From assembly GCF_012163145.1 (NCBI RefSeq), contig NZ_JAAVTX010000002.1:62001-126000 (forward strand): DNA of 64,000 bases, written 5' to 3'. The notes under the pieces were generated by a model. The model ran no database searches. It was given only the letters and a program-made list of their open reading frames with translations, and had not been told where the DNA came from. A program made the translations under genes and the position numbers. The DNA comes from Falsiroseomonas frigidaquae. GTDB lineage: Bacteria; Pseudomonadota; Alphaproteobacteria; Acetobacterales; Acetobacteraceae. This document shows, piece by piece, positions 26,585 through 43,083 of this stretch (position 1 is its first letter; each line of letters begins with the position of its first letter).

Positions 26585-28612
26585 TCAGCTTCGGCGCAGC
26601 AGCATCGCGCCATGCGCCAGCACCTCCGCCGTCCAGCCGGGCGGGATCAGCGTGGTGGCATCAAGCTGCGTGACGATGGCGGGGCCGTGCAGCGTGTCGC
26701 CCTGGCCGAGCACGGCGCGATCATACAGCGCCGCCTGCGCGGTGCCGGATTCGAAATGCACGGTCTGCGTGGCATGGGGCTGCGCACCGCGACCGGGGGG
26801 CAGCGTGGCCAGATGCGGCGGGGGCAGCGCGCCCACCGCCTCCAGCCGCAGGGTGACGATCTCCGCCTGGCCCTTCGGCAGGTCGAAGCCGTACAGCGCG
26901 CGATGCGCGGCGGCGAAATCCGCCGCGGCATCCGCACCATGCCAGGGCACGGGCAATTCGCCGCCCTGCCCGGCATAGCGCATCAGCACCACGCGGGCGG
27001 TGCGGCGCGCCGCGGGGGGCACGGCCTCCTCCAGGAACCAGGCCTCGGCTTCCGCCAGCAGCGCCTCGAAGCCAGCCTCGATCGCCGCCACATCCGCCCG
27101 GCCGGGCAGGACGGAGCGGCTGAATTCCGCACGCAGATCGGCCGAGAGCAGCCCCTGCGCGCAGAGTACGCCCGGCGAGGGCGGCACCAGCACCTGGTCG
27201 ATGCCGATCATCGCCGCCAGCGCGCAGCCATGCAGCGGCCCGGCGCCGCCGAAGGGCACCAGTGTGAAGTCGCGCGGGTCATGGCCGCGCTCGACGGACA
27301 CCACGCGCAGCGCGCCGACCATGTTGGAATCAACCACGGCGAGGATGCCGCGCGCGGCCTCGTGCAGCGACAGGTTCAGCGGTTCCGCCACCTCGCGCCG
27401 CACCACCGCCTCCGCCGCCGCGGCGTCCAGATGCATGCGGCCGCCGAGCAGCGCGGTGGGCAGATGGCCGAGCACGACATGCGCATCCGTCACTGTGGCC
27501 CGCTGCCCGCCGCGGCCATAGCAGGCAGGGCCGGGATTGGCGCCGGCGCTTTCCGGCCCGACCGCCAGCGCACCCTCCGCCGTGACGCGCGCGATGGAGC
27601 CACCACCGGCGCCGATCGTCACCATGTCCAGCATCGGCAATGGCAGGGGCCAGTCGCCGACGCTGCCGCGCTGCGTCAGGTTGATGGCGCCGCCCTGCAT
27701 CAGGCAGATATCGGCGCTGGTGCCACCGATATCGACCGTGAGGATGCGGGGCACGCCCGCCGCCTCCGCCATCGCCCGCGCGCCGACCACGCCGGCCGCG
27801 GGGCCGGAGAGCGCGGTGACGGCGGGGGCGCGGCGGATGGAAGCGGCGCCGGCGACGCCGCCATTGGATTTCATCAGCAGCAGCGGCGCCTCGATCGCAT
27901 CCTCCGCCAGCCTTTCCTCCAGCCGCCGCACATAGGTGGAGACGGCGGGCATGACCTGGGCGTTGAGGATGGCGGCCAGCGAGCGCTCATATTCCCGCAC
28001 CACCGGCAGCACATCGACGGAGGCGGTGACGGCGACGCCCGGCAGCGCCGCGCGCAGCAGTTCCGCGACGCGACGTTCATGCGCCGGCGCGGTGAAGGCG
28101 TGCAGCAGGCAGATGGCGACGGCGGCAACACCGGCCTGGCGGCAGGCTTCCGCCGCGCGCTGTACGCTGGCCTCATCCAGCGTCAGCAGCACCGTGCCAT
28201 CGGCGGCGACACGCTCCGTCACCTCGAAAACGCGGGAGGGTGGCACGGGCCGGCGTGGCTTCACCCAGGCATGCAGGTTCGCCCGGCGCGGAATGTCCTG
28301 GCGGCCGATCTCCAGCACATGGCGGAAGCCTTTCGTCGTGACCAGCGCGGTGGTGGCGCCCTTGTTCTCCAGGATCAGGTTGGTGGCGATGGTGGTGCCA
28401 TGCAGCACACGGCCGATCCGCGCCGCTGATTCCCCCGCATTCTCCAGCGCCAGACGCACGCCTGTGAGGAAAGCCTCGGAGGGATCGTGCGGGGTGGAGG
28501 GCGTCTTGGCGGTCCAGGCGCGGCCGGTCGCGCCATCCTGCAAGGTGATGTCGGTGAAGGTGCCGCCGATATCGACCGCGACCGAAAGCGGGCGCGTCTC
28601 AGTCAAGGACAT
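26585..28612 (-). CDS. hyuA: Hydantoinase/5-oxoprolinase A subunit (HyuA), copy 1
   Basis: 675 residues. VAVDIGGTFTDITL at the N terminus, VLHGTTIATNLILE near residue 70, TVDIGGTSADICLMQGG (second actin-fold phosphate loop) and the GAGGGSIARV glycine-rich loop show the ATP-binding HyuA fold. With HyuB it opens cyclic imides or lactams such as N-methylhydantoin or 5-oxoproline with ATP. Start ATG 28612 is favoured over ATG 28618 because GGAG lies eight bases before it. The gene overlaps hyuB by 14 bases. It resembles copy 2 (41026-43083) more than copy 3, judging from shared runs such as GFRHVLEIGR and WVKPRRP. Confidence 0.9.
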   Translation of the reverse strand: MSLTETRPLSVAVDIGGTFTDITLQDGATGRAWTAKTPSTPHDPSEAFLTGVRLALENAGESAARIGRVLHGTTIATNLILENKGATTALVTTKGFRHVLEIGRQDIPRRANLHAWVKPRRPVPPSRVFEVTERVAADGTVLLTLDEASVQRAAEACRQAGVAAVAICLLHAFTAPAHERRVAELLRAALPGVAVTASVDVLPVVREYERSLAAILNAQVMPAVSTYVRRLEERLAEDAIEAPLLLMKSNGGVAGAASIRRAPAVTALSGPAAGVVGARAMAEAAGVPRILTVDIGGTSADICLMQGGAINLTQRGSVGDWPLPLPMLDMVTIGAGGGSIARVTAEGALAVGPESAGANPGPACYGRGGQRATVTDAHVVLGHLPTALLGGRMHLDAAAAEAVVRREVAEPLNLSLHEAARGILAVVDSNMVGALRVVSVERGHDPRDFTLVPFGGAGPLHGCALAAMIGIDQVLVPPSPGVLCAQGLLSADLRAEFSRSVLPGRADVAAIEAGFEALLAEAEAWFLEEAVPPAARRTARVVLMRYAGQGGELPVPWHGADAAADFAAAHRALYGFDLPKGQAEIVTLRLEAVGALPPPHLATLPPGRGAQPHATQTVHFESGTAQAALYDRAVLGQGDTLHGPAIVTQLDATTLIPPGWTAEVLAHGAMLLRRS

Positions 28613-30371
28613 CGGCATAGCTCCGGCGATGAAAGGCTTTTGTCAGCGGACGCTGCGCGCGAAGGGCGGCGGTGGCGTCGGCATTGATGCCGAGGCCGGC
28701 GATGGCCACGCCGTAGTCGTGGCGCGCCGCTTCGGGAGAGACCAGGCCGCCCAGCACATCCTCCAGCACCGCCGCCGCCGGACGGTCGAAGGGATGGCCG
28801 CGGCCACCGCCACCGCCGGTCTCGATGCGCAAGATGTCGCCGCGCACCACGCGGTTGCCGTCGGAGAGTGGGCGCAGCTCGCGTTCCTGCGGCGTACCGG
28901 GATTCAGCACCACGCGGCCCGGCCGGCCTGATTGACCGCCGGCGGCGCCCCAGGGTGGGTTCTCCACGCCATCGATGCGGATGGCGAGGACGGACTCCTC
29001 CGCCATCACCTCATATTCGCGGATGATGCCGCAACCGCCGCGCCAGCGGCCCGGCCCGCCGCTGTCGCAGTTCAGCGCGTATTCGCGCAGGCGCACCGGG
29101 TATTCCAGTTCCAGGAACTCGACCGGGTAATTCTCCTGCGCCACGAAATACACGCCGTCGATGCCGTCGGCGAAGCCGCGCGCGCCATAACCGACGCCGA
29201 TGCCGTCGCTCATCAGGAAGGGTCTTCCGTTCATCGTGCCGCGCAGCAGCATGATGACATAGGCCGCATGCGCCGCCGGCGCCTCGCCACCCGCCACGGA
29301 AACCAGGCCGTTCAGCGCGGCCAGCATCCGCATCATGGTCAGGCCGCGCATGCCAAGGGCCGCCGGGAAGCGCGGCTGCAGCAGCGAACCCTCCCGCAGC
29401 CGCACCTCATCCAGCGATCGCGGTCCGCCTGCATTGACCACCTGCGTCGCATCGCCACCGAGGAAATACAGGCCGAGCGCCATGCCCGGCACATCCGGAT
29501 TCATCAGGAAGTTCACCGGACCGGGCGACTGGTCGTCCGTCTCCGTCGCATCCAGGATGAAGCGATCCTCCGCCGTGCGCGTCAGGGCGAAGCGCAGGCG
29601 CAGCGTGCCGCTGCCATGCCCGTCGCCATCGATGCGATCGGTGAAGCGGTGCGTGCCCACGGGAAAGGTCCGCCGCAACCGGTCCCGCACCGTGTCGCGC
29701 GTACGTGTCAGCAATTGCCGGAGCGCATCGGCCAGCACGGGCGCACCGAAGCGCGCCGCCACTTCCCGCATCCGCACCACGCCGAGCTCGACACTCGCCA
29801 TCAAGGCGCGCGTATCGCCCTGAGCCTGTTCGGGGTAGCGTGAATTGCGGTAGAAGATGGCGAGCGCGGCGTGGTTGGTCTCGCCCGCGGTGATCAGCCG
29901 CGTCGGCGGGATGATGACGCCTTCATGGAAAATCTCCGTCGCATCCGGGCTGATCGAGCCGGGGCGCAGCCCGCCGATATCCGCGAAATGCGCCCAGCCC
30001 ATGACGAAGGCGACGCGGACGCCATTCAGGAAGACGGGCGCGAGGAACACCTGGTCATTGGAATGGCTGACGGCGCCGCGCGATCCGTAGCAGTCATTGT
30101 ACCAATAGAGGTCGCCATCGCGGATCGTCTCGATCGGGAAGTCGCGGAAGACGGGGCTGCAGATGTCGCCGAAGACCGGGACATTGGAACCGACGGCCAT
30201 GACGCCATCCGCATCGAAGAGCGCGGTGTAGAAATCCTTCTTCTCTCGGATGAAGGCGGACATGGCGGTGCGCTCGATCAGCGCCTCCATCTCCGCCTGT
30301 GCGGCGCGGATGGCGCCACGCACGATCTCCAGCGTAACCGGGTTGCAGAGCCGCGGGGCGACATCATCCAT
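28599..30371 (-). CDS. hyuB: Hydantoinase/5-oxoprolinase B subunit (HyuB), copy 1
   Basis: 590 residues. The N terminus PVTLEIVRGAIRAAQAEME, the ERTAMSAFIREKKDF segment, GDLYWYNDCYGSRGAVSHSND and the C-terminal SGGPGRWRGGCG and GGGGGRGHPFDR glycine-rich segments are typical of HyuB. It is the partner of the overlapping hyuA and follows the peptide-type ABC ATPase gene by 12 bases, so the transporter probably supplies the substrate of this ATP-dependent ring-opening enzyme. Given the peptide-like receptor, 5-oxoproline or a cyclic dipeptide or hydantoin are candidates; none is proved by sequence. Confidence 0.9.
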   Translation of the reverse strand: MDDVAPRLCNPVTLEIVRGAIRAAQAEMEALIERTAMSAFIREKKDFYTALFDADGVMAVGSNVPVFGDICSPVFRDFPIETIRDGDLYWYNDCYGSRGAVSHSNDQVFLAPVFLNGVRVAFVMGWAHFADIGGLRPGSISPDATEIFHEGVIIPPTRLITAGETNHAALAIFYRNSRYPEQAQGDTRALMASVELGVVRMREVAARFGAPVLADALRQLLTRTRDTVRDRLRRTFPVGTHRFTDRIDGDGHGSGTLRLRFALTRTAEDRFILDATETDDQSPGPVNFLMNPDVPGMALGLYFLGGDATQVVNAGGPRSLDEVRLREGSLLQPRFPAALGMRGLTMMRMLAALNGLVSVAGGEAPAAHAAYVIMLLRGTMNGRPFLMSDGIGVGYGARGFADGIDGVYFVAQENYPVEFLELEYPVRLREYALNCDSGGPGRWRGGCGIIREYEVMAEESVLAIRIDGVENPPWGAAGGQSGRPGRVVLNPGTPQERELRPLSDGNRVVRGDILRIETGGGGGRGHPFDRPAAAVLEDVLGGLVSPEAARHDYGVAIAGLGINADATAALRAQRPLTKAFHRRSYADVLD

Positions 30372-30383
30372 GCGCGGTGATCC

Positions 30384-31358
30384 TCAGGCGAGATGGCAAG
30401 CGGCGTGGCGACCTGGCGCGATGGCGCGCAGCGGTGGAGCCTCCTCCGCACAGCGGGCGAAGGCAAGCGGGCAGCGGTCGCGGAAGGCGCAGCCGCTGGG
30501 CTGGTTGCGCTGGTCGGGCAGCCCGCCGATGATCGGCAGATCGCCGCGGTCCTGGTCCACCCGCGGCACCGGCACGGCGGCGACCAGGGCGCGGGTATAG
30601 GGGTGCGCGGCGCCGGCGATGACCTCCGCCGTCGGTCCGCTTTCGACGATGCGGCCGAGATACATCACCGCCACCTCCTCACAGACGTAGCGGATCAGCG
30701 CCAGGTCGTGGCTGATGTAGATGGCGGCGAGTTGCAGTTCGTCCCGCGCCCGGCGCAGCACGTTCAGCACGCCGGCGCGCACCGAGACATCCAGCATCGA
30801 AACCGGCTCATCCGCGATGATGGCGCGCGGATGCGTCACCAGCGCGCGCGCCAGCACCACGCGCTGCAGCTGGCCGCCGGAGAGTTCATGCGGGTGGCGG
30901 TCGAGATAGGCCTCCGCCGGATCGAGCCGTACACGCGCCATCGCCTCCCGGATCATCGCCTCCCACTGCGCGGCGGGCAGGCCGAAATTCCGCAGCGGCT
31001 CGGTCAGGGAGCGGCGGATGGTGAAGCGCGGGTTCAGCGCGTCGAAGGGGTTCTGGAAAACGAGCTGGACGCGGGACCGGAAGGGCAGCAGCGCAGCGCC
31101 ATGCAGCGCGGAGACGTTCTGCCCCTCGAACAGCACGGTGCCGCTCGTCGCTTCCTCCAGCCGCAGCAGCAGGCGCGCCGTGGTGGTCTTGCCGCAGCCG
31201 CTCTCCCCCACAATGCCGAGCGCGCGCCCCGCGGCAACCGCGAGCGAGACGCCATTCACCGCGCGCAGCACCGGCCGGTGGCCGCGCGCCATGTCGCGCA
31301 GGCTGCGCGAGGCCGGGAAGGCCTTCACCAGGTCATTCGCCGCGATCAGCGGGACCAT
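30384..31358 (-). CDS. Oligopeptide-type ABC transporter ATPase (DppF/OppF-like)
   Basis: 324 residues with Walker A GESGCGKTT (about residues 51-59), Q loop in LVFQNPFDALNP, signature LSGGQLQRV, Walker B AIIADEPVSMLD and the H-loop ISHDLALI. The C-terminal Cys-containing CAFRDRCPLAFARC tail is typical of peptide-transport ATPases, where it can bind an iron-sulfur cluster. The extra SRSLRDMARGHRP segment near residue 20, with its basic stretch before the first strand, is common in the DppF half. It overlaps the companion ATPase gene by 13 bases. Confidence 0.93.
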   Translation of the reverse strand: MVPLIAANDLVKAFPASRSLRDMARGHRPVLRAVNGVSLAVAAGRALGIVGESGCGKTTTARLLLRLEEATSGTVLFEGQNVSALHGAALLPFRSRVQLVFQNPFDALNPRFTIRRSLTEPLRNFGLPAAQWEAMIREAMARVRLDPAEAYLDRHPHELSGGQLQRVVLARALVTHPRAIIADEPVSMLDVSVRAGVLNVLRRARDELQLAAIYISHDLALIRYVCEEVAVMYLGRIVESGPTAEVIAGAAHPYTRALVAAVPVPRVDQDRGDLPIIGGLPDQRNQPSGCAFRDRCPLAFARCAEEAPPLRAIAPGRHAACHLA

Positions 31359-32350
31359 GTCGCGGCCTCCGAGGCCAGTGGCCGCAGTGCCGGCGCTTCC
31401 GCGGCACGCCAGCAGGCCACGTGATGATCGGGGGCCTGTTCCAGCAGCGCCGGATCCTTTTCGCAGCGCGCCACCGCGAAGGGGCAGCGCGCGGCGAAGC
31501 GGCAGCCCGTGGGCGGGTTGAGCAGGGAGGGCGGCGCGCCCTCGATCGGCACCAGCTCGCCCCCCGCACGCTCCAGGTCCGGGAAGGCGTTCATCAGGCC
31601 CATGGTGTAGGGGTGCAGCGGCGCTTCCAGCACGGCGCGCACCGGGCCGCTTTCCACCACGCGCCCGGCATACATCACCACCACGCGGTCGCAGGCATAG
31701 GCGACGACGGCGACATCATGCGTCACCAGGATCATCGCCAGGCCGAGTCGCGATTGCAGGTCCCGCATCACATCCAGGATCTGCCGCTGCACGATGACAT
31801 CCAGCGCCGTCACCGGCTCATCCGCGATCAGCAGCGCCGGGTTCAGCGCGAGCGCGAGCGCGATGGAGGCGCGCTGGCGCATGCCGCCGCTGAACTGATG
31901 CGGCCAGTCGCGCAGCCGGCCGGCATCGAGGCCGACCATGGCGAACAGCTCCACCGCCCGCGCCCCGGCCGCGGCGCGTGACAGGCCGCCGCGTTCCACC
32001 AGCACTTCCTGCATCTGCGCGGCCAGCCGCTGCACCGGGTCCAGCGCGTTCATCGCCGTCTGCGGCACGAAGGCCAGCCGCCGCCACAGCAGCTTGCGGC
32101 GCTCCGCCGGGGAGAGGGTGACGAGGTCCCGCCCCTCGAAGACGGCCTGGCCGGCGGCAATGGATGCGCTGCGCGGAAGCACGCCCATCAGTGCGCGGCC
32201 GAGGGTCGATTTGCCGCAGCCGCTTTCGCCGACCAGGCCGACGATGCCGGCCGCCGGCACCGTGAAGCTGGCGCCATCCACGGCGCGGACCGGCCCGGCG
32301 GCGGTGCGGTAATGCACGGCGAGATCGCGGACATCCAGCAGCGCGTCCAT
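31346..32350 (-). CDS. Oligopeptide-type ABC transporter ATPase (DppD/OppD-like)
   Basis: 334 residues. Walker A GESGCGKST, Q loop in FVPQTAMNALDP, signature FSGGMRQR, Walker B LLIADEPVTALD, H loop THDVAVV and a C-terminal CRFAARCPFAVARC tail place it in the peptide/nickel ABC ATPase family. The start is ATG 32350, overlapping the permease stop by one base (TGATG). Longer in-frame open sequence upstream is antisense-like extension inside the permease gene and is not used. Works with the 30384 ATPase as a heterodimer at the inner membrane. Confidence 0.93.
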   Translation of the reverse strand: MDALLDVRDLAVHYRTAAGPVRAVDGASFTVPAAGIVGLVGESGCGKSTLGRALMGVLPRSASIAAGQAVFEGRDLVTLSPAERRKLLWRRLAFVPQTAMNALDPVQRLAAQMQEVLVERGGLSRAAAGARAVELFAMVGLDAGRLRDWPHQFSGGMRQRASIALALALNPALLIADEPVTALDVIVQRQILDVMRDLQSRLGLAMILVTHDVAVVAYACDRVVVMYAGRVVESGPVRAVLEAPLHPYTMGLMNAFPDLERAGGELVPIEGAPPSLLNPPTGCRFAARCPFAVARCEKDPALLEQAPDHHVACWRAAEAPALRPLASEAATWSR

Positions 32351-33246
32351 CAATCCCCCAGCTTCGGAAACAGCAGCTTCTCCGACCCGCGCGACACCAG
32401 GAAGCCGGCCAGCACCAGCAGCACGATGCACAGGCCCGGCGGCACGAACCAGGTCCAGACGCCGCGCGACAGCGCCTGGTTGGCGAAGGCGTCCTGCAGC
32501 ATCAGGCCCCAGGAGATCGCATTGGGATCGCCGAAGCCGAGGAAGGAGGCGGAGGCCTCCGTCAGGATCGCCCAGCCCACGGCGATGGAGCCATAGAGTG
32601 CCGCAAGCGGCGCCACCTGCGGCGCGATGTGCACGAAGATGATGCGCGGCGTGGAACAGCCGGTGACGCGCGCCGCCTCCACCCATCCGCGTTCCCGGAG
32701 TGACAGGACCTGCGACCGGATGACGCGCGCCGTATTCGGCCACAGCATCAGCGCGACGGAGGCGACCAGCGTGGTGGTGCCGGGCCGAGTCAGCGCGGAG
32801 ATGACCAGCACGAAGGGCAGGAAGGGCAGGCCCAGGATGATGTCCGAGATCCGCATGATCACCCGGTCCACCCAGCCGCCGAGATAGCCCGACAGCAGCC
32901 CGAGCAGCGTGCCGATCACCACCACGAAGAAAGCCGCCGTGACGCCGACCTGCAAGGCGGAACGGGTGCCATGGACCAGTTGCGAGAATACGTCCCGCCC
33001 GCCAGCCGTCGTGCCGAGGTAATGCGTGGCGGAGGGCGGCAGGTAGCGCGCCACGCGATAGGCGCCGCGGAACAGGATTTCGCGCGGATCATGCGTCGCG
33101 ATCTGGTCGGCGAAGATCGCGAGCAGGATGAAGGTGAGGTAGATGGCCAGGCCCGCGACCGCGAAGGGCTGCTTGCGCAGGAAGCCCAGGCCCGACCCGA
33201 CGAAACCTGGCAGCGGCCGGCGCCGCATCGCGCTAGCGCCGGGCAC
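32350..33246 (-). CDS. Oligopeptide-type ABC transporter permease (DppC-like)
   Basis: 298 residues with an N-terminal cytoplasmic segment, one helix (FAVAGLAIYLTFILLAIFA), a periplasmic loop with HYLGTTAGGRDVFSQLVHG (the DppC/OppC 'GTD..GRDV.SR' pattern in variant form) and about five more helices. The ATPase-contacting EAA-like loop is EAARVTGCSTPRIIFVHIAP. GTG 33246 has GAGGG nine bases upstream and is kept as the start; ATG 33228 is an alternative without a ribosome-binding site. The GTG start overlaps the upstream permease gene by 14 bases. Confidence 0.9.
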   Translation of the reverse strand: MPGASAMRRRPLPGFVGSGLGFLRKQPFAVAGLAIYLTFILLAIFADQIATHDPREILFRGAYRVARYLPPSATHYLGTTAGGRDVFSQLVHGTRSALQVGVTAAFFVVVIGTLLGLLSGYLGGWVDRVIMRISDIILGLPFLPFVLVISALTRPGTTTLVASVALMLWPNTARVIRSQVLSLRERGWVEAARVTGCSTPRIIFVHIAPQVAPLAALYGSIAVGWAILTEASASFLGFGDPNAISWGLMLQDAFANQALSRGVWTWFVPPGLCIVLLVLAGFLVSRGSEKLLFPKLGD

Positions 33247-34210
33247 CGACGGACACCCTCGGGTCGAGCCAGGCGTAGAGCAGATCCGCCACCATGTTCA
33301 TCAGCACCAGCACCGCCGCGATCATGATGAAGGCACCTTGCGCCAGCGGGTAATCCGCGCCCTGCACCGCGGAGACCAGCACGCGGCCGAGGCCGGGCCA
33401 GGAGAACACCGTCTCGATCACCACATTGCCGCCGAAGGAACTGCCGAGGCCGAGGGCGAAGGCCGTCGCCACCGGCAGCAGCGCGTTGCGCGCGGCGTGG
33501 CGCATCACGATCGCCCAGCGCGAGAGGCCCTTCATCCGGGCCATGACGATGAACTCGTCGTTCAGCACCTCCAGCATCGTCGCGCGCATCAGAAGCAGCG
33601 GCAGGCCCTGCAGGTACAGCGCGAGGGTCAGCGCCGGCAGGATCAGGTGCCACAGGAAATCCGCCGAGGTCAGCCGCGCCCATTCGGAAGTGAACTCAGA
33701 CCCCGCGACATTGGCACCCGCGGAGGGAAAGATGCCCCAGGCGAAGGACAGCCAGGACAGCAGCAGCATGCCGAGCCAGAACTCCGGCGCCGCACGCGTG
33801 ATCAGCGCGGCGGGAATGGCGATTCCCTCCGTCACCGTGCCACGGGCGAATGCCAGGAAGGCGCCGGCGATGATGCCGAAGGCATAGGCGATGACCAGCG
33901 CGGTGATGGTCAGCGCAGCCGTGTTGGGCAGAGCCGCCAGCAGAATGTCCAGCACCGGCCGCTTCTGCAGAAAGGAGACGCCGAGGTCGCCTTGCAGCAG
34001 GCTGCCAAGATAGATCAGGTACTGCTCCGGCAGCGGCTTATCCAGGCCGAAGGATTCCAGCAGGTCCGCACGCATTTCCTCGCTGAAGGAATCAGAGAGG
34101 AAGTTCAGCGTCGGATCGCCCGGCATCAGCCGGAACAGCAGGAAGGTCAGCGTCGCGACCGCCCAGAGCACGAAGGCGGCATGCGCAATCCGCCCAGCGA
34201 AGCGCTTCAC
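33233..34210 (-). CDS. Oligopeptide-type ABC transporter permease (DppB-like)
   Basis: 325 residues if translation begins at GTG 34210 (VKRFAGRIAHAAFVLW), 16 bases after the receptor stop. An in-frame ATG at 34282 would overlap the receptor gene by 56 bases and add a basic, non-homologous tail, so it is rejected. The protein has the DppB pattern: first helix, FRLMPGDPTL, a long periplasmic loop, about five further helices, the EAA-like loop ARMKGLSRWAIVMRHAARNALLP and ETVFSWPGLGRVLVSAVQGADYPL near the end. It forms the membrane channel with the DppC-like subunit. Confidence 0.9.
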   Translation of the reverse strand: MKRFAGRIAHAAFVLWAVATLTFLLFRLMPGDPTLNFLSDSFSEEMRADLLESFGLDKPLPEQYLIYLGSLLQGDLGVSFLQKRPVLDILLAALPNTAALTITALVIAYAFGIIAGAFLAFARGTVTEGIAIPAALITRAAPEFWLGMLLLSWLSFAWGIFPSAGANVAGSEFTSEWARLTSADFLWHLILPALTLALYLQGLPLLLMRATMLEVLNDEFIVMARMKGLSRWAIVMRHAARNALLPVATAFALGLGSSFGGNVVIETVFSWPGLGRVLVSAVQGADYPLAQGAFIMIAAVLVLMNMVADLLYAWLDPRVSVGARR

Positions 34211-34226: not shown

Positions 34227-35921
34227 TCACTGGAACGGCGTGGTGGTTTCCCGCACCCCCGCCGGGTAGTGCAGCTTTCCATTCACCACGCGGTAGCCGG
34301 CTTCCTGCAGCAGCCGCTTTGCGCCATCCAGGTTGCCGCCCGGCACCCGGCCGACGATGCCGGCATCGTGCCAGGCCTCCAGCGCCGGCGAGACCATCGA
34401 ATTCGCCGGAACCGCCTGCCCGTTCCACGCCGCGCCGGCCATCATCTCCCGGTTCACGGAGGCCGAGAGCGCGCGGCGGAAGGCGGCGTCGGAGAAGGGT
34501 GCACGGCGCAGGTTCATGCCGACGAACTGAAAGCCGATATCCACCTCCTCCCGCACCGCGATCATGCGGGGATTGGCCTCGGCCATCTCCTTCACCAGAT
34601 CGGGGTCGCCGAAATAGTCGGCCAGCACGTTGATCTCGCCGCGACGGAAGGCGCCGAGCGTGGCTTCCGTGTTGGTGATAATGCGCATGATCCAGCGATC
34701 CGCCTTCGGCTTCGCCCAGTGGTTCGGGTTGGCCTCCAGCACCACTTCCTCATTCACGCGGGACCGGACGAAGCGGTAGGGGCCGGAGCCGATTGGGCGT
34801 TCCTCGACATAGGATTCCAGATTCTCCGGGCGGTTCTGGTACTCCGCGAGCACCGGCGCCCAGGTCTTCTTCTGCACGATGTTCAGCTTGGCCAGCACCG
34901 CGATGCGGAAGGCGGCATCGGGCCGCTTCAGGGTGAAGCGCACCGTCTTCGGGTCGGTGGCGACGACGCTGGCGATGTTCTGCACGAAGGGGCGGTACAT
35001 CGGCGATTCATTGCCGGTGCCCGGCGCCTCGAAGGAGAAGACCACATCCTCGGCCGTCACCGGATCGCCATTGTGGAAGGCCATGCCGTCGCGCAGCGTG
35101 CATTCGATATGCAGCGGGTCCGGCTGCACCACGCGTTCCGCCGCCCAGGGCTGCGGCAGGCCGTCCGGGCCCACGCGCATCAGCCGGTCCCATACCAGAT
35201 CCGTCACCCAGCTATCCGGCGCGCCGCTGACATAGAAGGGGTTGGTCGCCTTCACCGGCTCCGTGCTGTTGACGATGATGTCGCGCTGCGCGCCGGTGGG
35301 CTGCAGGCTGATCCAGTTCCAGAAATTACGGATGCCGAGTCCCGCCTGGTTCACCGCACTGGACTCGACGAAGACCTGCTTGTTGAAGGCCTGCAGGTTC
35401 ACCGGATGCACCAGGAAGGCATAGGGCTGGTCCTGGTTCACCACCTCCTGCACCTGGCGCACCAGGGCCTGGCGGCGCGCCTGGTCCATCTCGCTGCGCT
35501 GCGCCTCCGCCAGTCGGTCATAGGCCGGGTTGTTGTAGCCGACGAAATTGTAGCCGGTCGCGATATTGGCGGAATGCAGCAGGTTGTAGACCATCTCATC
35601 CGGGTCCCCGCGCTCCGGCCGGCCGACCATCTGCCACATGGTGAAGTCCCAGCGCTGCCGCTCGTACCAGACCACCTGGCTCATCTGCTGGTTGGGCAGT
35701 GGCCGAAGCTCAATCTGCAGGCCGAGCTTGCGCCATTCCTGTGCAATCAGCTCCGCCGCCTGATAGGCCGCCGGGGCCGCCGCCTGCGGGCGGGTCAGCA
35801 GCACCAGGGGGCGGATCGGGTCGCCCTGCGCGGCCTGTGCCTGCGCCGAACCGCCACCAAGCGGCAGCCTCGACAGGCCGGTGAGAGCGGAAGCGGCGAG
35901 CAGCATGGCGCGGCGGTTCAT
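34227..35921 (-). CDS. Peptide-type ABC transporter substrate-binding protein with circularly permuted domain order
   Basis: 564 residues with signal peptide cleaved near residue 30 (GGSAQAQA). Residues 36-210 match what is normally the C-terminal lobe of SBP family 5: PLVLLTR, WRKLGLQIELRPLP, MSQVVWYERQRWDFTMWQ, NNPAYDRLAEAQ, QDQPYAFLVHPVN. Only after this come the normally N-terminal parts: LVWDRLMRVGPDGLPQPWAAE (about 242-262), TLRDGMAFHNGDPVTAEDVV (about 275-293), GSGPYRFV (about 378). The protein ends at AKRLLQEAGY...NGKLHYPAG, exactly where ordinary members run on into the C-terminal lobe. All parts are present, total length is normal, only the order is changed. Start ATG 35921 has GGGGAC upstream. 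First gene of the permease/ATPase/HyuBA unit. Confidence 0.88.
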   Translation of the reverse strand: MNRRAMLLAASALTGLSRLPLGGGSAQAQAAQGDPIRPLVLLTRPQAAAPAAYQAAELIAQEWRKLGLQIELRPLPNQQMSQVVWYERQRWDFTMWQMVGRPERGDPDEMVYNLLHSANIATGYNFVGYNNPAYDRLAEAQRSEMDQARRQALVRQVQEVVNQDQPYAFLVHPVNLQAFNKQVFVESSAVNQAGLGIRNFWNWISLQPTGAQRDIIVNSTEPVKATNPFYVSGAPDSWVTDLVWDRLMRVGPDGLPQPWAAERVVQPDPLHIECTLRDGMAFHNGDPVTAEDVVFSFEAPGTGNESPMYRPFVQNIASVVATDPKTVRFTLKRPDAAFRIAVLAKLNIVQKKTWAPVLAEYQNRPENLESYVEERPIGSGPYRFVRSRVNEEVVLEANPNHWAKPKADRWIMRIITNTEATLGAFRRGEINVLADYFGDPDLVKEMAEANPRMIAVREEVDIGFQFVGMNLRRAPFSDAAFRRALSASVNREMMAGAAWNGQAVPANSMVSPALEAWHDAGIVGRVPGGNLDGAKRLLQEAGYRVVNGKLHYPAGVRETTTPFQ

Positions 35922-36101: not shown

Positions 36102-37841
36102 ATGCCGATTTCCACCGAAGAACAGCGCTTCCTCGATGCCGTCTCGCTGGACGCGCCCTGGGACCTGGTGACCACCTTCGCCGGCATGCATCGCTGGCGG
36201 CCGGAGGATGTGAACAAGGCGGCCGACGTCATCGTGGCGAAGCTGCAGCGCCACGGCATCCCGGTGGAGGTGCATGAGCCGGAGATCTGCCTCTCCGTGC
36301 CGCTGGACGCCGCGGTGACGGCCGGTGGCGTGCGCTACCGCGCCAAGCCGCCCTCTTCCGCCCTGCCGGTGCCGGGCGGGCGCACGGCGCCGCTGGTGAA
36401 GCTGAACGCCAACCCGAAGGCGCTGCGGTCCTACACCCGCGACATCGCCACGCTGTTCGGCGGCTCCATCACCTCGGTCGAGGAGGTGAAGCGCAAGGTT
36501 GGCGGCAAGATCGTCATCATGCAGGGCTTCGGCAACCCGGCGCTGACCAGCCTGATCGAGGAATGGGGCGGCGTCGGGCTGATTGCCGTGAACCCGGGCA
36601 TCGACATCCATTGGGGCACCTGCACCACCATCTGGGGCAGCCCGGACCTGCACGACCTGCCGCGCAAGCCGAAGATCCCGGTGGTCGCCGTGAACAATCC
36701 GGATGGCATGAAGCTGATGGAGCTGGCCGAGGCTGGCGGCGAGGCCACCATCATGACGGACATGCAGGAAGGCTGGTTCCCGCAGAAGATTCCGGTGGTC
36801 ACGATTCCTGGCACGGAAGATCCGGAGAAATTCGTGCTGCTGCACGGCCACTACGATTCCTGGGAGGTCGGCGTCGGCGACAATGCCACGGGCGATGCGA
36901 CGATGCTGGAGATCGCCCGCGTGCTGTGGGCGAAGCGGGGCGAGCTGAAGCGCAGCGTGAAGATTGCCTGGTGGCCGGGACATTCGACGGGGCGCTATGC
37001 CGGCTCCACATGGTTCACCGATGCCTTCGCGCAGGACCTCGACGAGAACTGCCTGGCCCAGGTGAATTGCGACAGCCCCGGCTGCCGCTGGGCCACCTCC
37101 TACCACCAGACGCGCGCCTTCACCGAAAGTGCCGCGCTGGCCGCCGGCGCCATCCGGGACGTGGTGCCGGATGCGGAGATCAAGACCATCCGGCCGCCGC
37201 AGGCCGGCGACTACTCCTTCAACAATATCGGCCTGCCCAGCTTCTTCATGCTGTCCAGCACGATGCCGGAGGCGCTGCGCAAGGAGAAGGGCTATTACGA
37301 CGTCTCCGGCTGCGGCGCGAACATCGCCTGGCACACGGAGAACGACACGCTGGAGATCGCCGACCAGGGCGTGCTGATGACGGACATGAAGATCTATCTT
37401 CTGTCCGTGCTGCGCATCGCGAATGCCGAGGCCCTGCCCTTCGACTGGATCGCGACCTGCGACGAATTCGATGCGACCATCGCGGGCTATGAGAAGGCCT
37501 CCCAGGGCGCCGCGGATCTGTCCCCGGCCAAGGTCGCGGTGGCCGGGCTGCGTGAGGCACTCGGCAGGCTGGGCGCTGCGCCGGTCGCGGCCCGCAACGC
37601 GGCGGTGCATGAACTTTCCCGAATTCTGGTGCCCATCAACTATACGCGGGAGGCGCGCTTCGCGCATGACCCGGCCTATACCGTGCCGCCCCTGCCCGGC
37701 CTTGCCGTGGCGGCGGAGCTGCCGCAGCTCGACGCCGCGCTGCAGAAGCCGGCGCAGGTGGAGCTGATGCGCGGGCAGAATCGCTTCGTCGCCGCACTGC
37801 GCGCCGCCACCCGCCGCGTGCAGCAGGCCGTCGCGGCATGA
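36102..37841 (+). CDS. M28-like metallopeptidase-fold protein with PA domain, catalytic Glu position replaced
   Basis: 579 residues, no signal peptide. Residues about 60-240 look like a protease-associated domain (KIVIMQGFGNPALTSLIEEWGGVGLI). The zinc fold follows with His250 and Asp252 (LLHGHYDSW), Asp260 (VGDNATGD), Asp324 (VNCDSPG) and a late His in AWHTENDT. At the position of the normal catalytic EE pair it has WPGHSTGRYAGSTWF (His294-Ser295), so the general-base Glu and a zinc-ligand Glu appear replaced. It may be a divergent aminopeptidase subgroup or a non-classical hydrolase. It diverges from the permuted receptor gene and overlaps the M20 gene downstream by four bases. Confidence 0.8.
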   Translation: MPISTEEQRFLDAVSLDAPWDLVTTFAGMHRWRPEDVNKAADVIVAKLQRHGIPVEVHEPEICLSVPLDAAVTAGGVRYRAKPPSSALPVPGGRTAPLVKLNANPKALRSYTRDIATLFGGSITSVEEVKRKVGGKIVIMQGFGNPALTSLIEEWGGVGLIAVNPGIDIHWGTCTTIWGSPDLHDLPRKPKIPVVAVNNPDGMKLMELAEAGGEATIMTDMQEGWFPQKIPVVTIPGTEDPEKFVLLHGHYDSWEVGVGDNATGDATMLEIARVLWAKRGELKRSVKIAWWPGHSTGRYAGSTWFTDAFAQDLDENCLAQVNCDSPGCRWATSYHQTRAFTESAALAAGAIRDVVPDAEIKTIRPPQAGDYSFNNIGLPSFFMLSSTMPEALRKEKGYYDVSGCGANIAWHTENDTLEIADQGVLMTDMKIYLLSVLRIANAEALPFDWIATCDEFDATIAGYEKASQGAADLSPAKVAVAGLREALGRLGAAPVAARNAAVHELSRILVPINYTREARFAHDPAYTVPPLPGLAVAAELPQLDAALQKPAQVELMRGQNRFVAALRAATRRVQQAVAA

Positions 37842-39229
37842 CGCGCGAGGCCGCGATCGCCGCCGCCAGCGGGTTGTTGGATGATGGCAGCCTGCTGGCG
37901 CTGCTCGCCCGCCGCGTCGCCTGCCCGACGGCAAGCCAGGACCCGGATAGCGGCCCGCATCTGTGGCGCTACCTGGAGCAGGAGATGGCGCCGGATCTGG
38001 AGCGCATCGGCTTCACCTGCAGCATCCACCCGAACCCCACCGGCAAGGGCGGCCCCTTCCTGATCGGCCGCCGGATCGAGGATGCGTCGCTCCCCACCCT
38101 GCTGACCTATGGCCATGGCGATACGGTGCGCGGCCTGGATGCCGAATGGCATGAGGGGCTGTCCCCCTGGGTGCTGACGCAGCGCGGGGAACGCCTGTAC
38201 GGCCGCGGCATCGTCGACAACAAGGGCCAGCATTGCTGCAACCTGGCGGCGCTGGAATCGGTGCTGAAGGTGCGTGGCAAGCTCGGCTTCAATGTCATCA
38301 TCCTGCTGGAGACCAGCGAGGAGGTCGGCTCCCCCGGTATTGACGAGTTCTGCCGCGCGCATCGGGATGAGCTGAAGGCGGATGTGCTGATCGCCTCGGA
38401 CGGGCCACGCCTGGTGCCGGATGTGCCGGCGCTGGTGCTCGGAACGCGCGGCGCCCTCAGCCTGGATCTGCGCGTGAAGTACCGCGAGGGTGGGCACCAT
38501 TCGGGCAATTGGGGCGGGCTGCTGGCCAATCCCGGCGTGCGGCTGGCGCATGCCATCGCAGCCATCATCGACCGCGACGGCCATGTGCTGGCGCGCGACA
38601 TCCTGCCGGAGCGCATCCCCAACAGCGTGCGCGCCGCGCTGGCGCATTGCGAAGTGGATGGCGGCGAGGACGGTCCGCAGATCAACCATTGGTGGGGCGA
38701 GCGCGGGCTGACCGCGGCGGAGAAGGTCTTCGGCTGGAACACCTTCGAGGTGCTTGCCTTCAAATGCGGCCACCCCGAGGCGCCGGTGAACGCCGTGCCG
38801 CCAGAGGCCGTGGCCCGCTGCCAGATCCGCTACACGGTGGACCGCAAGCCCGCCACCTTCATCCCGGCGCTGCGCGCGCATCTGGCGGCGGCCGGCTTCG
38901 ATGACGTGACGGTTGATCCGGTGAAGTCCGGTGCCGAATGGGCGGCGACTCGGATGGATCCGGATGGGCCCTGGCCGCGCATGGTCGCGGCCTCCGTCCA
39001 GCGCAGCACCGGCAAGACGCCGATGATCGTGCCGAATGCGGGCGGGTCGCTTCCCAACGATACCTTCGCCGTCACGCTCGGCCTGCCCACCATCTACATC
39101 CCGCATTCCTACAGCGGCTGTTCCCAGCACGCGCCGAATGAACATGCGCTGCTGCCGATCATGCGGGAGGGGCTGGAGATTGCCGCCGGGCTGTTCTGGG
39201 ATCTGGGCGAGCAGGCATGGCCGGAATGA
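37838..39229 (+). CDS. M20-family metallopeptidase/amidohydrolase
   Basis: 463 residues. Motifs are LLTYGHGDTVRG (first metal His and nearby Asp, about residue 95), GRGIVDNKGQHCCNLAALE (bridging Asp region), LETSEEVGSPGIDEF (catalytic Glu pair) and a C-terminal IPHSYSGCSQHAPNEHALL with the last metal His. The dimerisation (lid) domain is inserted in the middle with HHSGNWGGLLANP. The group includes ArgE, DapE, carboxypeptidase G2-like and dipeptidase-like enzymes; the GHGDT and SGCSQHAPNEH forms suggest an acylamino-acid or dipeptide hydrolase. It is coupled by ATGA to the M28-like gene before it and, at its own stop, to hyuB copy 2. Confidence 0.9.
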   Translation: MTREAAIAAASGLLDDGSLLALLARRVACPTASQDPDSGPHLWRYLEQEMAPDLERIGFTCSIHPNPTGKGGPFLIGRRIEDASLPTLLTYGHGDTVRGLDAEWHEGLSPWVLTQRGERLYGRGIVDNKGQHCCNLAALESVLKVRGKLGFNVIILLETSEEVGSPGIDEFCRAHRDELKADVLIASDGPRLVPDVPALVLGTRGALSLDLRVKYREGGHHSGNWGGLLANPGVRLAHAIAAIIDRDGHVLARDILPERIPNSVRAALAHCEVDGGEDGPQINHWWGERGLTAAEKVFGWNTFEVLAFKCGHPEAPVNAVPPEAVARCQIRYTVDRKPATFIPALRAHLAAAGFDDVTVDPVKSGAEWAATRMDPDGPWPRMVAASVQRSTGKTPMIVPNAGGSLPNDTFAVTLGLPTIYIPHSYSGCSQHAPNEHALLPIMREGLEIAAGLFWDLGEQAWPE

Positions 39230-41025
39230 GCGTCAACGCCGTCACCATCGAGATCATCAAGGGCGCCTTGCGATCCGCCCAGGCGGAATGCGAGGCGCTG
39301 CTGGAACGCACGGCGATGTCGCCGGTGATCCGGGAGAAGCAGGATTACTTCATCGGCTTCTACGGCGCGGATGGCCGGCTCGTCACCGGCACCAAGCTGC
39401 CGCTGTTCGGCGATGTGCTGCGGCCGATTCTCGACCGCTTCCCGGCGGCGGAGATTCGGCCGGGCGACATCTTCTGGTACAATGACTGCTACGCCTCCCG
39501 CGGCGGCGTCTCCCACACTTCCGACCAGGTCTTTGCTACGCCGGTCTTCGTGGATGGCGATCTGGTGGCCTTCGCGCAGAGCTGGGCGCATTTTCGCGAT
39601 ATCGGCGGCGCCTGGCCGGGTTCCAACACGCCCGGCACCGAAAGCATCTTCCAGGAGGGGATCATCGTGCCGCCGGTGCGGCTGTATCGGGAAGGCGAGC
39701 TGAACACAGACCTTTTCGAGACCTTCGTCCGCAATTCCCGCTTCCCGCAGCATGCGCGCGGCGACACGCGGGCACTGACAGCGGCGGTTCGGCTCGGCGA
39801 GAAGCGGCTCGGCGAATTGTTCGCCCGCTTCGGCACGGAGGTGTTCCTCGGCGCGGTGGAGGCGATGATCGACCAATCCTCCCGCGTCTTCCGCCGCCGC
39901 CTGGCGGAGCTGTTCCCGCCGGGGCATAGCTGGCGTTTCGCGGATCGCGTGGATGGCGACGGCAAGGGCGGCGGGCCCTTCACCGTGCGCTTCACGCTGG
40001 AGTCGCGGGAGGATGGCTTCACGCTGGACACCACCGAGTCTGACGCGCAGGCCAAAGGGCCCATCAACTTCCTGATGAACCCCACCGTGCCCAACACGGT
40101 CTTCGGCCTGTACCTGCTGCGCGATGAGCCGGGTCTGATGATGAATGAGGGTCTGCTGCGCGCCATCTCCGATGTGCGGACCAAGGACGGCACCATCATC
40201 CAGCCTGCCTTCCCGGCGCCGCTCGGCCAGCGTTCCAACACGCTGGCGCGCGTCATCTCCAGCTGCCTCGGCCTGATCGCGCAGGCGACGGAGGGTGAGA
40301 GCCCGGCGGCGAGTTCCATCTACACCATCTACACGCTGACCGGCCGGCAGCCCTCGGATGGTTCGCTGTTCTACAAATCCGGCGGCCACGGCACCGGCCA
40401 GGGCGCGCGGCCCTTCGCCGATGGGCTCGACGTCATCTACTACGTCGCGCAGCAAAACTACCCGATCGAGTTTTTGGAGACCGACATGCCGGTCCGCATC
40501 CGCACCTACGCGATCCGCGCGGATTCCGGCGGCCCCGGGCGCTGGCGCGGCGGCTGCGGCATGGTGCGGGAGATGGAGGTGCTGGTGGATGGCGCCGTGC
40601 TGAACACGCGCATGGACAATGTCGAGAATCCGCCATGGGGCGTGAAGGGCGGCGAGAGCGGCCGCCCCGGGCGCTTCCTGCTCAACCCCGGCACGCCGGG
40701 CGAACGCGAATTGCCGCGGCTGGCGCAGGGCATTCCGGTGCAGCGCGGCGATGTGGTGCGGATGGAATCGACCGGCGGCGGCGGCTGGGGCCATCCCTTC
40801 GATCGCGAGGCCTGGCGCGTGCGGCAGGATGTGCGCGGCGGCTTCGTCAGCGTCGAGGCCGCACGCGCCGATTACGGCGTGGTGCTGCGTGATGGCCCCG
40901 ATCGCGAGGTGGATGAAGACGCCACCGCAGCATTGCGTGCCCAGCGTGCCGACAACACGGCGCTGTTCCACCGCCACGGCACGCATCGTGATGCCAAGGC
41001 CTGGTGGCAGGCCATGGCGGGGTAG
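39226..41025 (+). CDS. hyuB: Hydantoinase/5-oxoprolinase B subunit (HyuB), copy 2
   Basis: 599 residues from ATG 39226, which overlaps the M20 stop as ATGA; ATG 39217 is possible and adds three residues. VNAVTIEIIKGALRSAQAE, ERTAMSPVIREKQDY, GDIFWYNDCYASRGGVSHTSDQ and SGGPGRWRGGCG are HyuB signatures and are closely similar to copy 1, so the two are paralogues. It is the third gene of a plus-strand peptidase unit. Its matching HyuA lies immediately downstream on the opposite strand, with the two stop codons touching (41023-41025 and 41026-41028), so the pair cannot be one operon. Confidence 0.9.
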   Translation: MSVNAVTIEIIKGALRSAQAECEALLERTAMSPVIREKQDYFIGFYGADGRLVTGTKLPLFGDVLRPILDRFPAAEIRPGDIFWYNDCYASRGGVSHTSDQVFATPVFVDGDLVAFAQSWAHFRDIGGAWPGSNTPGTESIFQEGIIVPPVRLYREGELNTDLFETFVRNSRFPQHARGDTRALTAAVRLGEKRLGELFARFGTEVFLGAVEAMIDQSSRVFRRRLAELFPPGHSWRFADRVDGDGKGGGPFTVRFTLESREDGFTLDTTESDAQAKGPINFLMNPTVPNTVFGLYLLRDEPGLMMNEGLLRAISDVRTKDGTIIQPAFPAPLGQRSNTLARVISSCLGLIAQATEGESPAASSIYTIYTLTGRQPSDGSLFYKSGGHGTGQGARPFADGLDVIYYVAQQNYPIEFLETDMPVRIRTYAIRADSGGPGRWRGGCGMVREMEVLVDGAVLNTRMDNVENPPWGVKGGESGRPGRFLLNPGTPGERELPRLAQGIPVQRGDVVRMESTGGGGWGHPFDREAWRVRQDVRGGFVSVEAARADYGVVLRDGPDREVDEDATAALRAQRADNTALFHRHGTHRDAKAWWQAMAG

Positions 41026-43083
41026 TTACCCCACCTCCACCACCAGGTTGCCGAAGGCGTCCAGCGTCGCGACGTCGCCGGGATGCAGCCAGGTGGTGGC
41101 ATCCATCTGCACGACGATGCCGGGGCCGCGCAGCACGGCGCCGGCGCCCAGCGCATCGCGGCGCCAGACCGGCACGCGGGCCGGGCCGTCCTCCAGATGC
41201 ACCAGCGCATCGCCGGCCGGCGTGGTCTCGCCGGCGGGTGGCGCGGCCTCGGCCGCCGGGCCGGGCAGGCGGCCGAGCGCGGTGACCTCCAGCGTCACCA
41301 CCTCCACCGGCGTGTCGCGCTGCGCGAAGGTGTAGAGCTGTTCGTGCTGCGCGTGGAACCGCTCCACCGCCTCCGCCAGGGACGCTGCATCGGCGCTGCG
41401 GCCGGGCCAGTCCACATAGAGTTCGAAGCCCTGGTGCATGTAGCGCATGCCGGCGCGCCAGCGAATCTCGCGCGCCGCTTCCGGCACGGATTCCGCGACG
41501 AGCCAGGCCGCGGCTTCCGCATCCAGCGCGCCGAAGGCATTGGCCAGCGGTGCCACATCGGTCAGCGGCGCCCGCAGCATCACAGTCCGAGCAAATTCGT
41601 TGCGCAGCGGCGCGGCCAGCAGACCCTCCGCGGAGAGAACGCCGGGCCGCGCCGGCACCAGGATGCGCTTCATGCCCAGCAGCCGCGCGATCGCCCCCGC
41701 CTGCAACGGCCCGGCCCCGCCGAAGGGCAACAGGGAAAAATCCTGCGGGTCATGGCCGCGCTGCACGGAGACCACGCGGATCGCCCCCGCCATGGCGTTG
41801 TCCGCCACTGCGACGATGCCGCGCGCCGCGTCCTGCAGGCTGAGCCCTAGCGGCTTCGCGATCTGCGCCTCGATGGCGCGTGCGGCGGCGGCCACATCCA
41901 ACCGGATGCCGCCATCCAGCAGCGAGGGCGGCAGGCGGCCGAGCACCAGGTTCGCATCCGTCAGCGTCGGCGCCTCCCCGCCGCGGCCATAGGCGACGGG
42001 GCCGGGATCGGCGCCCGCGCTTTCCGGCCCGACCAGCAGCGCACCCTCCGGCGAGACCCGCGCGATGGAGCCGCCGCCGGCCCCGATGGTGTGGATGTCG
42101 ATCATCGGCAGGGTCAGCGGCCAGTCACCGACGCGGCCCTCGCTGGTCAGCCGTGGCTCGCCATCGATCAGGCTGATATCGGCGGAGGTGCCGCCGACAT
42201 CCAGCGTGATCAGCCGCGGATGGCCTGCCCGCAGCCCCACCGCGCGCGCCCCCACCACGCCGGCCGCGGGGCCGGAGAGTGCGGTCTGCACCGGCTGCCG
42301 CGCCGCCCCCTCGCCACGGATCACGCCGCCACTCGATTTCATCAGCAGCAGCGGCGCGGCGATGCCGCCGTCGCGCAGCCGCTGTTCCACGCGGCGGACA
42401 TAAGTGGCGACGGCCGGCATGACATAGGCGTTCAGCGCGGTCGCCATGCTGCGTTCGTACTCCCGAAAGACCGGCAGCACCTCGGTGGACAGCGTGATGG
42501 GAATGCCCGGCAGCGCCTCCGCCAGGATCGCACCTGCGCGCTGTTCGTGGCGCGGATCGGCATAGGCATGCAGGAAGCACACGGCGACGGCCTGCACGCC
42601 GAGGCGGCGGAATTCGGCGGCGGCCTCGCGCACATCCGCCTCCTCCAGTGGGGTCACCACGCTGCCATCGGCGGCCAGGCGTTCGCGCGCCTCCAGCACA
42701 TGCTCGGGTGGAATCGGGCGGCGCGGCTTCACCCAGGAATATAGGTTCTCGTGCCGCGGAATGTCGTGCCGGCCGATCTCCAGCACATGGCGAAAGCCGG
42801 CCGTGGTCAGCAGCCCGGCCTGGGTGCCCTTGTGTTCCAGGATCGCGTTGGTCGCGACGGTCGTGCCGTGCAGCACATGCGTCACCTGCGCCGCGACGTG
42901 GCCGGCCTGCGCCAGTATCTGCGCGATGCCATCCGCGAAAGCCTGTGACCTGTCAGCAGGGGTGGAGGGCACCTTGGCCTGCCAGCGCTGGCCGCTGGCG
43001 CGGTCCACCAGCACGATGTCGGTAAAGGTGCCGCCCGCATCCACGGCGACCGAGAGTTCCGCCACGCTGCCCGCTGCCGTCAT
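41026..43083 (-). CDS. hyuA: Hydantoinase/5-oxoprolinase A subunit (HyuA), copy 2
   Basis: 685 residues. VAVDAGGTFTDIVLVDR, VLHGTTVATNAILEH, TLDVGGTSADISL and GAGGGSIARVSPEGALLVGPESAG show the ATP-binding HyuA fold, similar along its length to copy 1. It lies 50 bases after the tetR gene of the RND operon and has its own promoter-like sequence there, so it may be read separately or as the tail of the efflux operon. It converges on its probable partner hyuB copy 2, an uncommon layout for subunits of one enzyme. Confidence 0.9.
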   Translation of the reverse strand: MTAAGSVAELSVAVDAGGTFTDIVLVDRASGQRWQAKVPSTPADRSQAFADGIAQILAQAGHVAAQVTHVLHGTTVATNAILEHKGTQAGLLTTAGFRHVLEIGRHDIPRHENLYSWVKPRRPIPPEHVLEARERLAADGSVVTPLEEADVREAAAEFRRLGVQAVAVCFLHAYADPRHEQRAGAILAEALPGIPITLSTEVLPVFREYERSMATALNAYVMPAVATYVRRVEQRLRDGGIAAPLLLMKSSGGVIRGEGAARQPVQTALSGPAAGVVGARAVGLRAGHPRLITLDVGGTSADISLIDGEPRLTSEGRVGDWPLTLPMIDIHTIGAGGGSIARVSPEGALLVGPESAGADPGPVAYGRGGEAPTLTDANLVLGRLPPSLLDGGIRLDVAAAARAIEAQIAKPLGLSLQDAARGIVAVADNAMAGAIRVVSVQRGHDPQDFSLLPFGGAGPLQAGAIARLLGMKRILVPARPGVLSAEGLLAAPLRNEFARTVMLRAPLTDVAPLANAFGALDAEAAAWLVAESVPEAAREIRWRAGMRYMHQGFELYVDWPGRSADAASLAEAVERFHAQHEQLYTFAQRDTPVEVVTLEVTALGRLPGPAAEAAPPAGETTPAGDALVHLEDGPARVPVWRRDALGAGAVLRGPGIVVQMDATTWLHPGDVATLDAFGNLVVEVG

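Follow-up and report, generated by a model that had tools for sequence, protein, structure and literature searches.

A circularly permuted family-5 substrate-binding protein at the head of a Dpp-type ABC importer operon

By comparing the product of one gene in the window (the whole stretch of 64,000 nucleotides that we analysed) with ordinary substrate-binding proteins, we confirmed at the level of sequence a family-5 (cluster C) receptor whose C-terminal part comes first and whose N-terminal part comes second. With a probability of about 0.88 we suggest that this protein is a working, secreted receptor serving an ABC importer of the Dpp type, and that it is circularly permuted with respect to ordinary family-5 (cluster C) members. 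The gene lies on the minus strand and runs from an ATG at 35921 to a stop at 34229-34227, encoding 564 amino acids. Its predicted parts and its neighbours are as follows, the lobe limits being approximate ones of DppA.

34227..35921, minus strand: circularly permuted family-5 substrate-binding protein, 564 aa plus stop (Pfam, phmmer against the PDB, rotation scan)
35826..35921, minus strand: putative signal peptide, residues 1 to about 32 (its NRRAML start resembles a twin-arginine motif, read by eye)
35403..35825, minus strand: second half of lobe II, residues 33-173 (PDB search and DppA mapping; approximate lobe limits)
35286..35327, minus strand: junction of former C-terminus and former N-terminus, residues 199-212 (rotation scan, alignment)
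34542..35402, minus strand: lobe I, now continuous, residues 174-460 (DppA mapping; approximate lobe limits)
34230..34541, minus strand: first half of lobe II, residues 461-564 (new C-terminus after EAGY...LHYPAG)
33233..34210, minus strand: DppB-type permease (Pfam BPD_transp_1; GTG start)
32350..33246, minus strand: DppC-type permease (Pfam BPD_transp_1 and OppC_N)
31346..32350, minus strand: DppD-type ATPase (Pfam ABC_tran and oligo_HPY; start is an ATG inside a longer open frame)
30384..31358, minus strand: DppF-type ATPase (Pfam ABC_tran and oligo_HPY)
28599..30371, minus strand: hydantoinase B/oxoprolinase family (Pfam)
26585..28618, minus strand: hydantoinase A/oxoprolinase family (Pfam)
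25239..26570, minus strand: luciferase-like flavin monooxygenase (Pfam Bac_luciferase)
36102..37841, plus strand: M28 family peptidase, divergent from the receptor gene (Pfam PF04389)
37838..39229, plus strand: M20 family peptidase (Pfam)
39217..41025, plus strand: second hydantoinase B family gene (Pfam)
41026..43083, minus strand: second hydantoinase A family gene (Pfam)

The first-pass annotation had placed the receptor at the head of a transporter operon and had noted a signal peptide before the moved lobe. In agreement, Pfam identifies DppBCDF genes behind it on the same strand, a complete Dpp/Opp-type importer set of two permeases and two ATPases, and a signal-like start can be read in front of the moved segment, in a region of low conservation (mean 0.26). 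Hydantoinase A and B family pairs flank the transporter on both sides (26585-30371 and 39217-43083), forming one island. Family-5 receptors are much expanded in this genome of 6.1 Mb, where the receptor family has 75 match places (some genes giving two), and one permuted copy was seen.

The PF00496 (SBP_bac_5) profile scores the permuted receptor at 242.4 bits against a curated cut-off of 32.4. When both receptors of the window are compared with this profile, the ordinary one (14706-16295) gives one stretch, residues 73-443 corresponding to model positions 3-364, whereas the permuted one gives two, the best being residues 256-550 (model 2-285), and a single collinear match was not obtained. 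The swapped order of these stretches marks the protein as a permuted variant rather than an ordinary family-5 member. The motif positions first annotated were recovered, with FHNGDPVTAEDV starting at residue 282 of the permuted receptor and FHDGSPFTAEDI at residue 98 of the ordinary one. In a phmmer search against the PDB, residues 259-548 match AppA (1xoc) at chain positions 68-349 and residues 56-179 match it at 377-495. Searched separately, residues 30-212 find 14 chains with best stretches all within chain residues 327-516, and the receptor minus these residues finds 44 chains with best stretches within 16-367. Two further matches on the moved segment, Phage_capsid_4 and DUF1285_N, fell below the Pfam cut-off and were taken as chance. 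Residues 33-173 carry a MVGRPER(S/G)DPDE motif, and this segment stands late in ordinary chains. After duplicate removal our alignments comprised 94 permuted and 55 ordinary rows (two of the latter, L038 and L065, were dropped later); both segments were detected in 41 of the 55, and all 41 have them in the opposite order to the permuted receptor, which exceeds what chance would give.

We also rotated the mature protein in 6-residue steps against a profile built from 49 ordinary receptors only. In its native order the receptor gives two domains, the better one at 258 bits, and the scan reaches its maximum at a cut at 199-205, where one match replaces the two and the best single domain scores 347 bits. 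That the rotated chain forms one complete receptor match, together with the swapped PDB and PF00496 matches, bears out the original proposal of a circular permutation with nothing missing. All 26 permuted representatives give two domains in native order, and rotation raised the score and yielded one domain in 25 of them (change -0.7 to 87.2 bits, median 76.2), the exception being L161, which did not gain. L161 (the same gene as L174) and L169 make up a diverged branch of the permuted clade in which the chain is longer at either end: about 70 additional residues precede the first shared part, and about 25-30 follow the usual C-terminus. Since the window's ordinary receptor, our first rotation control, belonged to the training set of the profile, each of the 49 ordinary rows was left out in turn; all 49 peaked within 40 residues of their natural ends and gained at most 0.5 bits.

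On one point our mapping departs from the first-pass annotation, which had described a swap of whole lobes: alignment with E. coli DppA puts the cut inside lobe II and not between the lobes. Residue 543, the Y of EAGY, aligns to DppA 368, and the moved part picks up the DppA sequence again near position 380. We take lobe II of DppA to span about precursor residues 289-506 (for OppA, no published lobe limits were found in open-licence PMC papers), and since positions 289 and 506 map to residues 461 and 173 of the permuted receptor, the cut falls within this lobe. By this alignment the first-placed segment comprises the second half of lobe II together with the C-terminal stretch that returns to lobe I. 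Lobe II should accordingly be built from both chain ends, with lobe I (about 174-460) continuous and containing, near 199-212, the point at which the old termini are joined. Along the chain, the signal peptide is predicted to be followed by the second half of lobe II (about 33-173), then by lobe I (about 174-460) and last by the first half of lobe II (about 461-564); the new ends would fall in the loop that follows the EAGY helix, ahead of the strand preceding ligand residue R383 in DppA. In such an arrangement lobe I would be inserted into lobe II, which inverts the usual topology. The usual two lobes would fold, close on the ligand in the manner of a Venus flytrap and hand it over to DppBC.

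Whether the permutation arose once was addressed with a whole-chain tree of 75 rows (33 permuted and 42 ordinary; archaeal ordinary receptors were left out of the trees). Here the permuted rows form one side of a branch supported at 100/100, haloarchaeal and bacterial rows being mixed within it. Trees of the separate parts agree, the permuted clade having SH-aLRT support of 99 in the N-part tree and 84 in the C-part tree. One ordinary-labelled row that had fallen inside the clade proved to be the N-part half of a split copy (G070) and was dropped. In a search with the Halalkalicoccus N-part the higher-scoring matches appeared to be permuted relatives, and no clear archaeal ordinary receptor was found. 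These trees bear on two other histories. The receptor could be a chimera in which the C-part of one family-5 receptor was fused to the N-part of a different paralogue, tandem paralogues being common in its own genome and the two part trees resolving no common ordinary sister group. We regard this as unlikely, given that the permuted rows are one clade in both part trees and that the two parts together make up one complete receptor in the rotation scan. Less likely again are several independent permutations at the same loop, even though the loop may be a favoured permissive site, the members are very diverged (27-30% identity) and the sampling is without archaeal ordinary receptors; the strongly supported mixed clade and an identical cut site in the rows inspected argue against repeated events. 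Because the permuted rows form one clade at 100/100, a single old permutation event is the simplest reading on trees without archaeal ordinary receptors. The probable route of this single event would be a tandem duplication that acquired a new start and a new stop, after which the permuted form would have been inherited by descent and also moved between bacteria and haloarchaea by transfer. The origin by duplication and trimming first proposed is plausible, and no duplication intermediate was found among the loci studied. We judge it fairly likely that one ancient permutation founded a separate, unrecognised cluster C class present in alphaproteobacteria, betaproteobacteria, Trueperaceae and haloarchaea, with lobe I inserted into lobe II and with the exported N-terminus, and the membrane anchor of the lipoprotein-like haloarchaeal members, on the opposite lobe from normal.

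Evidence for function comes from the surroundings of related genes and from their substitution pattern. A motif scan of GTDB species genomes returned 316 stretches with the pattern and 181 relatives, and the best 80 of these 181 were fetched as loci, many of them from metagenome bins. Among these best 80 of 181, the next frame encodes a DppB-type permease in 75, and DppC is found in 74, DppD in 73 and DppF in 71; genes of the wider neighbourhood are also present (M28 in 64, HyuA1 in 44, HyuB1 in 41, FMO in 19 and M20 in 17). A Dpp-type gene lies nearby in all eight diverged bacterial loci examined. Values of dN/dS against four near relatives of the same group are 0.090, 0.159, 0.185 and 0.174, and against two farther relatives, where synonymous sites are more saturated, 0.442 and 0.401. 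The first-pass description of a working permutant thus gains indirect support from purifying selection, from conservation across many species and from the conserved operon. An expressed protein turned sensor or chaperone, no longer feeding a transporter, seems improbable with DppB as next frame in so many loci; the five loci lacking it there are three cut by contig ends and L058 and L075, which do offer this explanation some support. In both of these the receptor stands beside an M28 gene, and about 8 kb of downstream sequence revealed neither a Dpp permease nor a Dpp ATPase gene; they are possibly orphan receptors. Family-5 receptors are reported in a proteomic study of Ketogulonicigenium vulgare (PMC3284542), which we did not count as evidence of expression, the genes concerned being unclear. 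A preference of permuted receptors for twin-arginine signals was considered and rejected, a crude Tat pattern that misses plausible signals (including the window's own) matching 17 of the 94 permuted rows and 9 of the 53 ordinary ones, with no sign of a link.

Within a set of 147 related genomes, our own included, a match at E 1e-50 was found in 22, and 19 of these have one uninterrupted collinear copy. The other three copies are interrupted by an in-frame stop (G033), split (G070) or cut by a contig end (G019), and 6 of the 16 genomes of the genus have no permuted copy at this threshold. The nearest named relatives belong to Roseomonas/Falsiroseomonas, with identity up to 95%. We note broken copies in three genomes, namely L036 (the in-frame stop of G033), L038/L042 (the split of G070) and L067 (a stop); in the split copy the boundary between the two frames lies close to the point where the old termini are joined. 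Among the fetched loci (best 80 of 181), 79 have one open collinear frame that extends 0-5 residues beyond the match, and NCBI ranks assign 75 of the 80 to Alphaproteobacteria, two to Betaproteobacteria and two to Deinococci, one being unplaced. A junction profile gave junction-spanning matches in at least 13 of 385 genomes of the class (own included, 14 places) and a broader one, across 398 phylum-wide genomes, in our own genome only, both counts being lower bounds with up to 7 (class) and up to 6 (phylum) candidates scored per genome. A full-length profile found in the 398 phylum genomes our own gene and ordinary receptors only. With no junction match beyond our own genome in these 398, the permuted form appears uncommon in the phylum at large. 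Plasmids carry it as well: 13 plasmid records were matched with the permuted receptor as query and 37 with a diverged relative, many haloarchaeal among the 30 matches listed. Seven such records, all circular (Ketogulonicigenium, Maritalea and five haloarchaea), were analysed, and in all seven the ordinary profile matches in swapped order and the permuted profile in one stretch. The same order in 79 of the 80 loci and in all seven plasmid records shows that it is not an artefact, and an assembly error or chance fusion in our own genome can be dismissed, nothing having been found in its favour and uninterrupted frames occurring in independent assemblies of other species and circular plasmid records carrying the permuted form.

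The ligand may differ from that of DppA, in which R383 and D436 bind the carboxyl and amino groups of the dipeptide (PMC12136057). Their aligned counterparts in the permuted receptor are Q46 and E103, so that the DppA ligand residues are not matched, the R383 column being an uncertain, gappy one with a gap in 48 of the 49 ordinary rows. Q46 and E103 are invariant in 49 aligned close members, and in the diverse permuted rows Q is kept in 17 of 26 and E in 20 of 26. The scoop-loop pair E41/R42 of E. coli DppB is not preserved in the permeases of permuted-receptor loci (33233-34210 and those of the loci fetched), where other residues take its place. The DppA dipeptide-receptor equivalog NF043070 scores the permuted receptor at 93.8 bits, the threshold being 1005. 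Q46 and E103, together with the unconserved E41/R42 pair, suggest that a plain dipeptide is not the ligand. Genes next to permuted receptors encode hydantoinase/oxoprolinase, M20 and M28 proteins, an IclR regulator and a flavin oxidoreductase. These neighbours suggest that the ligand in this branch of the family may be an amino-acid derivative, such as a cyclic amide or an amino acid in acylated or carbamoylated form. Genes for creatininase, M20, M81, amidohydrolase or D-aminoacylase proteins adjoin the haloarchaeal permuted receptors L187, L188, L191 and L192, which likewise suggests substrates of the amide type.

Compared with receptors of the DppA/OppA type (PF00496, cluster C), the present protein has the same family in both parts and the same kind of operon, but its parts are in rotated order and Q46/E103 stand in place of R383/D436. 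Annotation by best PF00496 match would label such receptors as ordinary; the annotated matches in the 13 plasmid records are named ABC transporter substrate-binding protein, and one also shows hypothetical protein. No report of a natural cluster C permutant was found in open-licence PMC papers (subscription papers and preprints lie outside this search). To our knowledge there is one precedent for a structurally proven natural permutation of a transporter binding protein, TpMglB-2. PMC4990184 describes TpMglB-2 (Tp0684) of Treponema pallidum as a natural circular permutant of cluster B, for which Type Ic / Cluster Bc was proposed. In the features given there it resembles the present protein as a natural circular permutation of an ABC substrate-binding protein that is kept in a clade, one including distant bacteria, and it retains ligand binding and ligand-induced closure. 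It differs in being a cluster B glucose receptor, whereas the present protein belongs to family 5 / cluster C and would represent a separate event in another fold class, with a clade that, unlike that of TpMglB-2, includes archaea. When Pfam was searched up to E 1, SBP_bac_5 was the sole family above its cut-off for the present protein, and no cluster B sugar-receptor family was among those passing. Engineered permuted binding proteins, which serve as man-made scaffolds in biosensor work, differ from the natural and conserved arrangement seen here. The present receptor would thus be a second natural case, in the largest peptide-receptor fold class and conserved across two domains of life, and would offer a natural experiment on how the choice of the lobe that is continuous, or that bears the N-terminus, affects capture, closure and docking.
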